A stretch of 22,486 nucleotides of DNA from a bacterium. Its GTDB lineage: Bacteria; B130-G9. Below, piece by piece: positions 568 through 22,486 of this stretch. A program made the translations under genes and the position numbers. The DNA lies in contig JAGHCW010000218.1 in NCBI GenBank assembly GCA_021160245.1, forward strand, positions 1-22,486, read 5' to 3'. Under the pieces are notes generated by a model. That model worked only from the letters and a program-made list of their open reading frames with translations. It did no database searches and had not been told where the DNA came from. Within the stretch, counting starts at the first letter, position 1; each line of letters starts with the position of its first letter.

Positions 568-663
568 CATAAGAGCTGGGATGATCCACGAAGGTCACGA
601 AGATGCACTAAGATGCTTTTTCCTTCGTATCTCTTCGTGTTCTTCGTGGACGGACCTCTTATG
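568..663. repeat. 96-bp palindromic intergenic repeat, copy 1
   Basis: The element is bounded by CATAAGAG (568-575) and its reverse complement CTCTTATG (656-663). Inside are nested complementary arms: TCCACGAAG (585-593) with CTTCGTGGA (642-650), and CACGAAGA (596-603) with TCTTCGTG (632-639). It matches copy 2 (1223-1318) at 83 of 96 positions with no gap. On the minus strand it begins two bases after the restored stop codon of the caspase-like gene (666-668) and ends 21 bp before the lipoprotein start, filling the 119-bp spacer. It could be a REP/MITE-like element or a 3' RNA hairpin. No T-tract follows, so it is not a textbook terminator. Confidence 0.9.
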
Positions 664-665
664 TC

Positions 666-1203
666 CTAATTGCCGCTCAGGCTCAGCTCCCAAATGCTCG
701 GATCGGCGGTGCTGGTCGTGACGAGGGGGGTGAATGGCCGAGCCAAGGGCCTTCAGTGTGACCTCGGGCATCATGGAATTGAGATACGTGCGCAGCTCGC
801 CGAGGGTAACAGCGCCGTCTCTTGGGCCCGCTCCCTCAAAGCCGTCCGCCTTCTCAGACAGGCCCTCGAGGAGGCAGTGCGTGAACGCGCCGTTTGACCA
901 GGAGGAATCCTCGACAGCAAGCCTATCGGTAATTGAGTCCTGAGCGGGAATTACTGCGGCCTGTTGTGCTGCGTCCGGGTCGGCCTCCGTATTCTCTTGT
1001 GTCATCGTCTCTATCCTCGGAAGACCTCTGATGATTTTCCTGAGCATCTCATCTACAGCGCCAAGAACAGCTCTGTTCAAGTATCTTGCCTCTTTCGCCC
1101 CTGTTCTTGGGGAAACAGAAACACCAGCATACTGAGCCGGGTCGCTATGAGAGTAGTACACCGAGTCATTCATCATCAGTTCATTTGTGGACGTTTTTGT
1201 CAC
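666..1203 (-). pseudogene. Caspase-like (C14) C-terminal remnant with frameshift
   Basis: The reading frame begins at GTG (1203-1201). Its second half carries the C-terminal signature of bacterial caspase-like proteins: NGAFTHCLLEGL, then KADGFEGAGPRDG, VTLGELRTYL and MPEVT. After AIHP the frame is lost at a run of six G (725-730 on the plus strand). Removing one base gives HPLVTTSTADPSIWELSLSG-N and a TAG stop at 668-666, which is the usual caspase ending; without it the frame runs on into the palindromic repeat as far as 595. The N-terminal part (SVYYSHSDPAQYAGVSVSPR and onwards) shows no His/Cys catalytic dyad, and an in-frame stop at 1224-1222 blocks any upstream extension. So this is either a broken gene or a noncatalytic protein with an assembly or sequencing indel. 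Both flanks carry the 96-bp repeat. Confidence 0.6.
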
Positions 1204-1222
1204 GGATAACTCGTCAAGAATT

Positions 1223-1318
1223 CATAAGAGCTGGGGGGATCCACTAAGGTCACGAAGGGGCACTAAGAAGATCTTCCCTTCGTGTCCCTTCGTGTTCTTA
1301 GTGGACGAACCTCTTATG
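1223..1318. repeat. 96-bp palindromic intergenic repeat, copy 2
   Basis: It has the same CATAAGAG / CTCTTATG ends and the same length as copy 1. The inner arms are TCCACTAAG (1240-1248) with CTTAGTGGA (1297-1305), and CACGAAGGG (1251-1259) with CCCTTCGTG (1286-1294). Relative to copy 1, the G-C pair in the outer arm is a T-A pair here and an A-T pair in the inner arm is G-C, so pairing is kept through compensatory changes. It starts four bases after the M16 gene stop (1325-1323) on the minus strand and ends 19 bp before the caspase remnant's GTG. This spacer is also 119 bp. Confidence 0.9.
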
Positions 1319-1322
1319 ATCA

Positions 1323-2585
1323 TCACACCGAGAGATCGAGCTTATCGAGAATCGTCTTGTCCAGATTGCCGACTATCGAGAGAGCCAGTTCGCTTTCCCC
1401 GAAGAGCTTGCGCGCAAGAGCACTGACAGCTTCAGTAGAGACTGCGTCAACTTTCGCGCATATCTCGTCAAGCGACAGTATCTTATCGAAATAAATATGG
1501 CTCTTCGCAAGCCGCAGCACCCGGGCGGAGGTCGACTCAAGCGCGAGCATCATTGCGCCCTTCAGCTGCTCTTTAGTCGCCTCGGTCTCCTCGTTGGAGA
1601 CTCCCTCATTCACCAGAAGTCGCAGCTGGGCCATTATCAGTTTGATGAGGCGCTTCATTTTCTTGGGTCCTGTTGCTGAGTGGATGGCGAAGATACCGGC
1701 GTCCCTCCGTCGCACAGAGAAGGAGCTGATGTCGTAGCAGAGGCCGTGTTTCTCCCTTATCTCTTGGAAGAGACGGCTTGAGGCGCCGCTGCCGAGGAGT
1801 GTGTCTAAAACGGCGAACTCAAAGCGATCGGGGCTCATGTATGGCAAGCCCTCAACGCCGAGGCAGATGTTGATGTGGTCGAACTTTCTCGTATATACGC
1901 CCTTCTTTCCCACGAATTCCGGGGGGCCTGTTTGGAAGAAGTCCGAGTCGTCGCCGGGAGGTATCTTGCCGAAGGCCTCCGACGCGATATCTGCGAAGCG
2001 CTGCGGGTCGATATTGCCACTGCATGCGACGACCATATTCTTGCCTACGTAGTTCCTATTATAGTACTCAAGGATGGTCTCCCTGGCTAGCCTTCTGAGA
2101 AAGGATTGATTGCCCAGAAGCGACATCCCATGCGGGTGTTTGGGCCATACATCCCTCAAAAATTGCATGATACTATTTGATGTCGGATCGTTCGTCTCCC
2201 TGAGTATCTCATCTAGAACGACGGTGCGCTCGAGTTTCATAGCGTCCGGCTCAAAGAGCGGGGTGGAGACAAGGTCGGATAGCACGTCAACACCGATGTC
2301 CATGTGCTTATCGAGGACCTTCACCATGAATACCGTGGATTCGTGGTCGGTCCAAGCGTCCAGCACGCCGCCTATGCCCTCAATCGAGTTGGCTATTTCC
2401 TTTGCTGTTCGCTTTTTTGTCCCCTTGAAGACAAGATGCTCAATGAAGTGCCTAATACCGCCCGTCTTTCCCCAATCCTTCGCAGGTCTTGTGTTGATCC
2501 AAACCGCGATTGAGACGGATTTAACATGCTCAATCGGCTCGCATAATAGGGTAACTCCGTTATCTAGAACGCGCTCATCAATCAC
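1323..2585 (-). CDS. M16 family zinc metallopeptidase (YmxG-like)
   Basis: A 420-residue protein of the pitrilysin/processing-peptidase family, which digests or processes peptides in a closed two-domain chamber. The inverted zinc motif HFIEH is at 46-50 (His46, His50 ligands, Glu49 catalytic base). The distal ligand is Glu126 in RTVVLDEI, where most relatives have EE. The N-terminus (LDNGVTLLCEPIEHVKSVSI) and C-terminal half (ESTSARVLRLAKS, SIVGNL) fit the single-unit bacterial type of about 410-420 residues. No signal peptide is seen, so it is probably cytoplasmic. The start is GTG at 2585, with GAGG seven bases upstream. It sits 80 bp downstream of gyrB on the same strand and could be co-transcribed. 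Its stop is followed four bases later by palindromic repeat copy 2. Confidence 0.92.
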   Translation of the reverse strand: MIDERVLDNGVTLLCEPIEHVKSVSIAVWINTRPAKDWGKTGGIRHFIEHLVFKGTKKRTAKEIANSIEGIGGVLDAWTDHESTVFMVKVLDKHMDIGVDVLSDLVSTPLFEPDAMKLERTVVLDEILRETNDPTSNSIMQFLRDVWPKHPHGMSLLGNQSFLRRLARETILEYYNRNYVGKNMVVACSGNIDPQRFADIASEAFGKIPPGDDSDFFQTGPPEFVGKKGVYTRKFDHINICLGVEGLPYMSPDRFEFAVLDTLLGSGASSRLFQEIREKHGLCYDISSFSVRRRDAGIFAIHSATGPKKMKRLIKLIMAQLRLLVNEGVSNEETEATKEQLKGAMMLALESTSARVLRLAKSHIYFDKILSLDEICAKVDAVSTEAVSALARKLFGESELALSIVGNLDKTILDKLDLSV

Positions 2586-5242: not shown

Positions 5243-5270
5243 TCATGGCCTTTAATATCAGATTTAGGTC

Positions 5271-5300
5271 GTCCACGAAGGCCACGAAAAGCACGAAGAC
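5271..5300. repeat. Decayed half copy of the palindromic repeat
   Basis: GTCCACGAAGG, CCACGAAAA and GCACGAAGAC follow one another here, resembling the left inner arms of the 96-bp element (TCCACGAAGG, TCACGAAGATGCAC). The matching right half is only vaguely present (TTTCGTCTCCGTCC, 5309-5322) and the CATAAGAG ends are absent. It is probably an eroded or partial family member upstream of gyrB. Confidence 0.5.
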
Positions 5301-20310: not shown

Positions 20311-20425
20311 CGAGTCCCCCCATTTCAGCTTTCATCCTTCATCCTTTCGCCTTCATATTTTCATTCAACCTGCCACTCGCACGAGGCGATGTTGGACGCG
20401 AAGTTCATCGTCCCCGCGTGGGTAA
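20311..20425 (-). repeat. Shared 3' module, copy 1 (end of propeller gene plus 3' heptamers)
   Basis: About 110 bases nearly identical to 21816-21925. On the minus strand it covers the last ~21 codons of the propeller gene, the TGA (20363-20361) and about 50 noncoding bases. The noncoding part contains heptanucleotide units AAGGCGA-AAGGATG-AAGGATG and ends near GGGGACTCG. Confidence 0.8.
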
Positions 20426-21773
20426 AGGCGGAGTAGAAGCGGTACGTGCCTCCGGGCATGCCGGTCAGGTCGAGTTCGAGCAGCGGGTAGTCCTCAAGCG
20501 TCAGGCCGATCGGGACATCGATGCCATTAGCGTATGGGGTCATGGATGGCGTCCAATCGGGGGCGTAGAGCAATGTCCCGTCCGACAACTCGACCGCGAT
20601 GTAGAAGTCGAGGCGCAGGTCCATCTGGAACCAGATGTCCGCCTCAAGCATAGCCTGGCTCAGCCCCTTGAGTTCAGTAGGCTCCGGCTCTTGGGTCGCC
20701 GCCAGCTCCATCATAACGGGTGGCCACGCGTCGGCCCCACCGCGCAGGACTGCCGGTCCGGCGCCTGTTGCGAACCACACGTCACCAGTCGCCTCGTCCA
20801 CCGCTATATCCTCTATACGGGTTGAGCCAAAGTCCAGCCAGCGCCATTGCTCATTTTCATAAAACAGCGCGCCCGCTCCTGTGGCGCCGTTCCACGATCC
20901 ATAGAAAGCAGAGAACCAAACTGCCTCACCGGCCAGAGCCACACGCCAGGCGCTGCCCGTCTTTCCAGGAATGTTGGGGTGCTGAACCGGGGTCCAATCG
21001 CTCCCGTTCTCGCTATAGAATATGTCCGGACCACCATCCAGCGTGCGAAAAACCGTCCGCCAGAACTTGCCTGCCGGAGATATCGCCATGTCCGTGTTGC
21101 CATCCGGGCCGGGCGGGTACGGGTATTCATCGGTCTGGCCCCACTCGACTAGCGGCGGGTTACTCTCTCCTGGCTGCCGCACGACGCCGACTCCATGCGT
21201 CGTCGAAAACCAGAGGTCCCTCTCAGGTCCCATAGCGAATCCATTGATCCAAGCCCATTCCTCAGGCAAACTGTCCCTCCATCGGAAACCCACTCCATTC
21301 TGCCACCCCTCAACGAGGCTTTGCCAGCCTAAATTGCCCTGCCCATAGAAGGATGCGACCCAGATGTCTTCCGCTGAGCTGAAGCCAAGTGCAAGAGCCC
21401 TGTCAAACGCTGCCCCCGACGGGTTATCCCGCATGGGTATGTACTCGAACTCGCCGTTCTCTAAATAGAACACACCATAGTTTGCGCCACCAAGCCAAAC
21501 CCGGCCCGACTGGTCAACGACGAGATCCGTGAGAATGTCCTCAACGCGATAGCCGACCCATTTCAACTCATCAAACCGGTAGACGTTGACGTCTTCACCG
21601 CCGTGCTGCCTAGCGAACCACTTAGCGCCCGTCAGAGGGTCCACTTCTACCTCGTGGACGTTGCCGATGTCCCACCACTCCAGCTGCGGGGATGCCGGCG
21701 GCCAGGCGCCGCAAGAACCTGTCAGAACCAACACAACAGCGATTCCTGCCAGCACTACTCTTGCTGAATCCAT
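20361..21773 (-). CDS. Exported beta-propeller protein with conserved C-terminal domain
   Basis: 470 residues with a signal peptide (MDSARVVLAGIAVVLVLTG-SCGA); SGSC-like cysteine 21 makes lipoprotein processing possible but the box is imperfect. From about 30 to 350 it has blades like those of two-component-regulator propellers: DLVVDQSGRVWLGGANYGVF, GPERDLWFSTTHGVGVV, AISPAGKFWRTVF, DIAVDEATGDVWFATGAG. The C-terminal domain (about 365-470) contains DFYIAVELSDGTLLYAP, LPGGTYR-like GMPGGTYRFYSAFTHAG and ends SNIASCEWQVE; it recurs in the neighbour at 21860. AGGAG lies seven bases before ATG. No histidine kinase or other effector domain follows, so it is not a sensor kinase itself. Function unknown; probably surface or periplasmic binding or adhesion. 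Confidence 0.85.
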   Translation of the reverse strand: MDSARVVLAGIAVVLVLTGSCGAWPPASPQLEWWDIGNVHEVEVDPLTGAKWFARQHGGEDVNVYRFDELKWVGYRVEDILTDLVVDQSGRVWLGGANYGVFYLENGEFEYIPMRDNPSGAAFDRALALGFSSAEDIWVASFYGQGNLGWQSLVEGWQNGVGFRWRDSLPEEWAWINGFAMGPERDLWFSTTHGVGVVRQPGESNPPLVEWGQTDEYPYPPGPDGNTDMAISPAGKFWRTVFRTLDGGPDIFYSENGSDWTPVQHPNIPGKTGSAWRVALAGEAVWFSAFYGSWNGATGAGALFYENEQWRWLDFGSTRIEDIAVDEATGDVWFATGAGPAVLRGGADAWPPVMMELAATQEPEPTELKGLSQAMLEADIWFQMDLRLDFYIAVELSDGTLLYAPDWTPSMTPYANGIDVPIGLTLEDYPLLELDLTGMPGGTYRFYSAFTHAGTMNFASNIASCEWQVE

Positions 21774-21815: not shown

Positions 21816-21925
21816 CCGAGTCCCCACGATTCATCCTTCATCCTTCCGCCTTCATCCTTTCACTCAACCTGCCACTCGCACGAGGCGATGTTGGACGCGA
21901 AATTCATTGACCCCGCGTGGGTGAA
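21816..21925 (-). repeat. Shared 3' module, copy 2
   Basis: Counterpart of 20311-20425. On the minus strand it covers the last ~22 codons of the truncated propeller gene, its TGA (21862-21860) and about 45 noncoding bases with heptamers AAGGATG-AAGGCGG-AAGGATG-AAGGATG, then GGGGACTCGGCC. A stem GGGACTCG / CGGGTCCC lies just beyond (21803-21823) but is followed by A, not T, in the gene's direction. Confidence 0.8.
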
Positions 21926-22486
21926 CGCCGCGAACCAGCGATACGTTCCTGCAGGCAAGCTTGGGAGGGAGAGGCTGAACAGCTGGTAGTCATCGAGATG
22001 TGTATACGCGGGTATCTCGACGCCCTCCACAAATGGCGCCATCGTTGGCCCAAACGACGGATAGAAAAGCAGCTCGCCCGATACCATCTCAAGGGCGACG
22101 TAGAAGTCAACTGTCCTACTATCGTCGGCGTCCGATATGAGCTCAATCGATACTGTCATCGAATCGCCAGACAAATAATTGCTCTCATTCGTCGCAATAT
22201 ACAGCGAAATCGCCGGGGCCGACTCATCCCTGCAAAGGACCCACACACCTGAACCCCAACTACTAAGACCAGGATTCCCATGCGGAATCCATATATCCCC
22301 CTTTCTGTCCATGATTATGTTAGTAGCACCGTCCCACCCTTTGAATGGGCATACGTACGGTTTCCAATGGTACTGATCAAAGACAGAAATTACAACACGT
22401 GAATCACGGTCAAATCCGCCGCAGACTAACTGCCCACCTTCTGATATGAAAATCGGACCGATTGTGGAGGCAGGATACCCATCAGG
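21860..22486 (-). CDS. Propeller-type protein, N-terminus beyond window
   Basis: The frame is open to the right edge with no need for an internal ATG; 208 residues are visible and the start lies outside. The visible N-terminal part has propeller-blade sequence (GPIFISEGGQLVCGGF, NIIMDRKGDIWIPHGNPGL, SGVWVLCRD). The C-terminal domain (about the last 120 residues) runs SLYIATNESNYLSGDSMTV, DFYVALEMVSGELLFYP, YQLFSLSLPSLPAGTYRWF and AAFTHAGSMNFASNIASCEW-QVE. It is paralogous to the gene at 20361-21773 and 86 bp upstream of it on the same strand, so the pair probably arose by tandem duplication. Confidence 0.85.
   Translation of the reverse strand, partial: PDGYPASTIGPIFISEGGQLVCGGFDRDSRVVISVFDQYHWKPYVCPFKGWDGATNIIMDRKGDIWIPHGNPGLSSWGSGVWVLCRDESAPAISLYIATNESNYLSGDSMTVSIELISDADDSRTVDFYVALEMVSGELLFYPSFGPTMAPFVEGVEIPAYTHLDDYQLFSLSLPSLPAGTYRWFAAFTHAGSMNFASNIASCEWQVE

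Follow-up and report, generated by a model that had tools for sequence, protein, structure and literature searches.

Phased palindromic repeats dispersed across bacterial phyla, with GxxExxY nuclease genes as candidate partners

The two palindromic repeats near the start of a 22,486-nucleotide bacterial contig (JAGHCW010000218.1; here called the window, meaning the whole stretch analyzed) are members of a class dispersed over many bacterial phyla. Our analysis suggests that they are solo, non-autonomous REP-like copies, and that the gene-bearing form of the class is a cassette with a GxxExxY gene, whose product is the likely cognate enzyme. We put the probability of this reading at about one half. 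The window copies were placed in the class by repeat anatomy, because no resident cognate gene was found in their own genome. Such repeats are abundant in some uncultured and environmental bacteria, and almost nothing has been published on GxxExxY, although proteins of this name are widespread. Connecting the two assigns a testable function to the orphan nuclease family and proposes an enzyme for the orphan repeats.

The window repeats and their class

The original prediction described two gap-free 96-bp copies with common ends, and both alignment and BLAST confirmed them (copy 1 as query finds copy 2 at E 5e-28). Their likeness extends about 9 bp further leftward (559-663 vs 1214-1318, 86%). 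On each strand, both copies fold into hairpins of -39 to -51 kcal/mol, with z scores of -5.7 to -7.0 against dinucleotide shuffles. The hairpin arms are arrays of the heptamer CACnAAG in 9-bp phase, inverted across a variable loop (Table 1). No target-site duplication is visible at the flanks of the two copies.

Table 1. Positions of the repeats and adjacent features in the window
Feature	Positions	Strand	Details
Palindromic element, copy 1	568-663	.	Outer stem CATAAGAG/CTCTTATG; inner inverted arms CACGAAG-GT-CACGAAG-ATG-CACTAAG / CTTCGTA-TCT-CTTCGTG-TT-CTTCGTG
Palindromic element, copy 2	1223-1318	.	83/96 identical to copy 1; units CACTAAG-GT-CACGAAG-GGG-CACTAAG / CTTCGTG-TCC-CTTCGTG-TT-CTTAGTG
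Third copy, one-armed, decayed	5270-5298	+	TCCACGAAGGCCACGAAAAGCACGAAGA; divergent spacer, gyrB/NTP_transf_5 gene; BLAST E 0.3
DNA between elements	664-1222	-	One ORF, frame 595-1203, running into copy 1; frameshift possible at 724-730
M16 zinc-peptidase gene	1323-2585	-	Stop 4 bp from copy 2

Both copies had been placed 2-4 bases after a minus-strand stop codon. This holds for copy 2, next to the M16 stop at 1323. Copy 1 lies 3 bp from a TAG on the minus strand (667-669). The middle ORF, read in its intact frame, passes over this codon and runs into the repeat; only under an assumed frameshift at 724-730 would the TAG serve as its stop. A frame change at this G run would restore the stop at 667-669, and the run is either a sequencing error or a sign of a decayed gene. 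One of the two spacers is 119 bp as predicted, and the other is about 119-120 bp depending on the start codons chosen. The middle ORF had been called a caspase-like remnant. It has no Pfam match at E <= 1 even when read through the presumed frameshift, so the label is unproven. In the relatives read, the DNA that follows the M16 orthologue differs from that in the window.

A different kind of repeat lies at the other end of the window. Units of the form TTCATCCTTCATCC(TTTCG)CCTTCAT are found at 20331-20364 and 21831-21862, directly 3' of two paralogous minus-strand genes. They are part of a 168-bp direct repeat (20331-20498 and 21830-21997, 81% identity) that comprises the 3' ends of the two adjacent paralogues and the spacer repeat behind them. 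In the relative G002, the arms that flank an S23/four-helix-bundle gene (L381) consist of the same kind of unit.

The dispersed, REP- or MITE-like family proposed in the original prediction was borne out by further copies in the same genome and in its relatives. The pattern CACNAAGNNCACNAAG has 14 matches in the window's genome, vs 1 for the reversed control, and 15-34 in three relatives from its family, where the control gives 0-1. Half-sites number 12-261 per genome in 12 genomes of several phyla, again against 0-1. Exact two-armed palindromes are present in at least 116 stretches among GTDB species genomes, from Acidobacteria, Deltaproteobacteria, Planctomycetota, Chloroflexi, Verrucomicrobia, Gamma- and Zetaproteobacteria, Nitrospinota, Leptospiraceae and others. 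Cultured carriers include Thioalkalivibrio denitrificans, Desulfobacter vibrioformis and Herpetosiphon aurantiacus. Of about 760 start-to-start distances between CACGAAG units in all fetched DNA, where overlapping loci enter more than once, 633 are 9 bp, 88 are 10 bp and 24 are 8 bp. The window copies have the defining features of the class, namely inverted 7-bp units, 9-bp phase and CACnAAG flavor, and its dispersal is far above control.

Copies of the class are mostly intergenic. Only 21% of 125 lie within predicted ORFs, compared with 87% of random positions, with genes called by a simple longest-ORF caller. BLAST found essentially no repeats on plasmids or phages, where the low-complexity filter may mask matches, and they are present on five IMG/VR contigs only. 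At nine T. denitrificans loci (L238, L265, L269, L274, L276, L279, L282, L287 and L289), a CGCnAAG palindrome is nested in long-loop CACGAAG palindromes. The nested palindrome sometimes contains a GTAGGTTGGGGTGAGG palindrome in turn.

Units, phase and inverted order are constrained, pairing is not

Differences between the arms of the two window copies had been read as compensatory, and as a sign of selection on the fold or of palindrome maintenance. The two-sequence consensus fold (33 pairs) does contain exactly two double changes that keep pairing (23:78 GC>TA and 36:65 AT>GC), with none broken. On the fold of copy 1 itself, two are kept and three are broken. These changes are weak evidence, because at least two such changes arise in 2-8% of simulations with 13 random substitutions. 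Across many copies, no covariation beyond chance was found. In the window's family, variable unit positions match between arms in 5/10 cases, no more than in shuffled arms (0.45), and spacer bases never match. In GTDB genomes with at least three copies, spacer pairing is 0.385, vs 0.422 after shuffling within genomes. An apparent excess of spacer pairing over pooled genomes vanished under this shuffling and was discarded. The two arms of an element match no better than arms from other elements of the same genome, in a test where arm picking sometimes took inner registers. In two orthologous copies (genomes G001 and G002), changes in the left arm have no partner, and one unit was lost by a 10-bp deletion. 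Copies decay after landing, without compensation. These results show that the constraint is on unit sequence, phase and inverted order rather than on pairing, which points to recognition of the units and not to an RNA fold.

These observations bear on two other explanations. A 3' RNA hairpin, selected for its fold as an mRNA stabilizer or terminator-like element at the ends of minus-strand genes, would account for the position of both copies 3-4 bp from minus-strand stop codons, for their very stable folds and for the two compensatory pairs. Divergent spacers are also mildly under-used (14 of 81 typed intergenic copies vs 91 of 290). The arms of the class lack covariation, however, and the changes in orthologues are uncompensated. 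An excess of G.U over A.C on the sense strand (15 vs 10) is not significant, the numbers being too small. In addition, Rfam has no match for the window repeat, and the third copy lies in a divergent spacer. We therefore do not favor a dedicated 3' RNA element and consider it improbable. Templated (quasipalindrome) correction, which would maintain the palindromes with no cognate enzyme, is more improbable still. It would explain the symmetric changes between the window copies. It does not fit the one-sided changes and single-unit loss in orthologous copies or an own-arm match no higher than the match to other arms, and it leaves the identity of the units across phyla unexplained.

GxxExxY genes between inverted arrays

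Palindromic, intergenic, high-copy repeats could be ordinary REP elements mobilized by RAYT/Y1 tyrosine transposases, and Y1_Tnp domains are indeed present in 14 of the 15 genomes examined. Only 1 of 30 Y1 loci, however, has a CAC-AAG array within 1.5 kb, and the Y1 loci with inverted flanks carry palindromes of other kinds. One genome with 29 pattern matches has no Y1 match. In the window's own genome, the single Y1 ORF is truncated and IS200-like, and its flanks are free of arrays. The GTAG tag is found near the palindrome base in 2 of 117 elements and in neither window copy. The CGTC tag is found in 2 of 234 arms of the class; the window copies have CGTCCAC at one foot. The search for an associated RAYT proposed in the original prediction thus gave no association with the arrays. 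RAYT/Y1_Tnp was rejected as cognate enzyme, and mobilization as ordinary REPs has, in our estimate, little chance of being correct.

Proteins annotated GxxExxY often start or end with translated versions of such units. We located GxxExxY genes (PF13366/TIGR04256) in the genomes already examined, to which a class-wide sample of Acidobacteria was added. To score bracketing, the 220 bp upstream were aligned to the reverse-complemented downstream flank of equal length, with a cut-off of at least 16. Matching inverted flanks were found at 82% of 71 GxxExxY loci, compared with 4.8% when downstream flanks were swapped and 6-8% of 632 other ORFs. In an enlarged set of 107 loci, 74% are bracketed. Each locus has one unit flavor in both arms, which may be CACnAAG, CACnGAG, CGCnGAG, CGCnAAG, CGCAGATT or others. 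In the relative G002 (C81), two complete CAC-AAG palindromes flank a GxxExxY gene, the same layout as in the window. The suggestion that the window repeats belong to an element that brackets a gene was in this respect a useful hint, since the same arrays bracket GxxExxY genes elsewhere; mobilization of the element is inferred. At two loci from different genomes (L291 and L292), homology spans from arm to arm and ends there, as would be expected for a mobile cassette. The GxxExxY cassettes have ends like those of the solo elements and are their candidate parent.

Four of the Acidobacteria cassettes (L316, L336, L362 and L407) all lie 3' of the same upstream gene, with C-termini like ..TDG..VRTFTGR. 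This suggests either an old common site or a preferred target.

GxxExxY is a small predicted nuclease of the PD-(D/E)XK superfamily, with a Pfam PDDEXK_3 match at E 5e-44. Residues E23, D62, E72-x-K74 and Q86-x3-Y90 are conserved at 94-99% in 110 proteins, and dN is well below dS (for example 0.028/0.289 and 0.119/1.06). This shows that the gene is under purifying selection and that the nuclease motif residues are conserved. A likeness to Cas4 (E 0.035) is merely suggestive. We found no solved structure of a GxxExxY relative and confirmed no viral GxxExxY. An AlphaFold model from a two-sequence input was too poor (pLDDT 46) and was discarded.

The window's genome, a 95%-complete MAG, contains two GxxExxY genes, both with arms of the CGCAGATT type. 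No CAC-AAG-armed GxxExxY was found in this MAG. The CAC-AAG copies in the window therefore appear to be relics, or rely on a gene missing from the assembly.

Arm flavor follows the GxxExxY protein. On a tree of 56 proteins, flavor changes 17 times, vs 28.6 when shuffled, and none of 500 shuffles was as low. Flavor is common to 83% of pairs of near relatives from different genomes and to 19% of distant pairs. Divergent GxxExxY genes within one genome have a common flavor in only 16% of pairs. When syntenic loci were collapsed to 27 independent sites, 12 changes remained vs 15.2 (p = 0.024). The signal on the tree thus comes mostly from vertically inherited loci and is weak after the collapse. 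Vertical loci are still informative, because their non-coding arms keep the flavor while synonymous sites saturate.

Repeat number also correlates with the gene. The 149 Acidobacteria genomes fall into three groups: 18 with a CAC-AAG GxxExxY (median of 49.5 CACGAAG half-sites), 40 whose GxxExxY genes are all of another or unclassed flavor (median 5) and 91 with none (median 1). The first group differs from the second at p 5e-5 and from the third at 2e-10, with kinship and assembly gaps ignored. For five genomes, the automatic rule gave an unclassed or truncated result, and they were placed by visual inspection of the flanks: G006, G090, G093 and G128, which make up 4 of the 18 in the CAC-AAG group, and G138. 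At least 10 repeats are present in 6 of the 91 genomes with no detected GxxExxY, which as MAGs may be incomplete. With kinship ignored, these data show that repeat number in Acidobacteria correlates with the presence of the cognate-flavor gene.

GxxExxY genes are not the only ones found between such arrays. Phased inverted arrays with a score of at least 20 flank 15 of 22 S23/four-helix-bundle genes (PF05635, L368-L397), with units of other kinds (TTCAAGA, GTAGCCA, CAGTTGG and GATCAGG). To our knowledge, S23/four-helix-bundle proteins have no known nuclease fold or motif. Since S23 genes are also bracketed by phased arrays, bracketing need not mean processing. The S23 arrays are possibly a parallel system.

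The main alternative to a GxxExxY-driven element is that the palindromes are passive targets. They would spread by other means or arise by replication slippage, their loops would be permissive landing sites, and GxxExxY would be cargo. This is unlikely in our judgment, but it is kept alive by the nested palindromes of other kinds in T. denitrificans loops, GTAGGTTGGGGTGAGG included, and by the S23 genes within other arrays. Unrelated DNA is also present in loops of relatives, and REPs are known to land in palindromes (PMC3733652). A passive target does not account for an arm flavor that follows the GxxExxY protein rather than the genome, or for a repeat number that tracks the cognate-flavor gene. 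Furthermore, no gene family recurs within about 4 kb of closed palindromes, GxxExxY included, which argues that GxxExxY is not just common cargo there.

Proposed mechanism and known systems

In the reading that we prefer, elements that carry a gene are cassettes with a GxxExxY gene set between the arrays. The protein would recognize the array as a single-stranded hairpin or a cruciform, and would nick or process it. Palindromes with matching units would then be copied into new intergenic sites or transferred there, much as RAYT acts on REPs, and the solo copies would drift and decay after landing. Binding, cleavage and mobilization by GxxExxY, and an origin of the window copies in such activity, are inferred. 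A broader proposal is that an unrecognized REP/RAYT-like system exists in bacteria of many phyla, in which GxxExxY, and not an HUH transposase, recognizes and spreads modular palindromes of 9-bp-phased units, with units matched to each nuclease subfamily and S23 genes maybe forming a third, parallel system. We offer it tentatively, with somewhat less than an even chance.

We found neither the repeat sequence, nor a mechanism for it, nor its pairing with GxxExxY in the literature covered, and a prior description is possible in the subscription journals, most of which lie outside that scope. The main text of the RepRanger paper contains no such motif. For GxxExxY, only two mentions were found, both incidental.

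Several known elements resemble the class in part. Like MITEs, the repeats are short, non-coding and dispersed, with inverted termini; the window copies have no visible target-site duplication. S23/IVS four-helix-bundle elements have been described (for example PMC4990558). As in the cassettes, they have a small ORF set between phased inverted arrays, and both are found in the same genomes. Their array units, TTCAAGA, GTAGCCA and GGATGAA, are unlike the CACnAAG class. REPs tagged with CGTC occur in several phyla, with stems of 8-9 bp and no dedicated RAYT known (PMC3733652). The class resembles them in being palindromic, present in several phyla and without a known dedicated RAYT, but it has two to three 7-bp units and the CGTC tag is nearly absent from its arms. 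In TIRtrons (TIRYT), RAYT-like genes are flanked by long TIRs (PMC3733652). As in these, the cassettes have a single small gene between terminal inverted repeats, which also form solo families; the enzyme superfamily and the repeat grammar are different.

The closest likeness is to REP/REPIN-RAYT systems (REPtrons). In these, dispersed palindromes, a few nuclease genes flanked by them, and joint variation of enzyme and repeat mark a non-autonomous element and its enzyme (PMC3116915, PMC3733652, PMC8266576). The class described here likewise combines high-copy intergenic palindromes, few palindrome-flanked nuclease genes, co-variation of enzyme and repeat, and decayed solo copies. The stems are longer and more modular than REP stems, because the arms are phased 9-bp heptamer arrays. 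Unlike in REP/RAYT, the GTAG tag is absent, and the predicted nuclease is of the PD-(D/E)XK_3 type (GxxExxY) and not HUH/Y1. The REP/RAYT-like arrangement is thus seen here with an unrelated nuclease, and spreading would proceed by GxxExxY cutting. If this is true, the REP/RAYT arrangement of a palindrome population plus a gene for a small nuclease had more than one origin, and the enzymes involved are unrelated.
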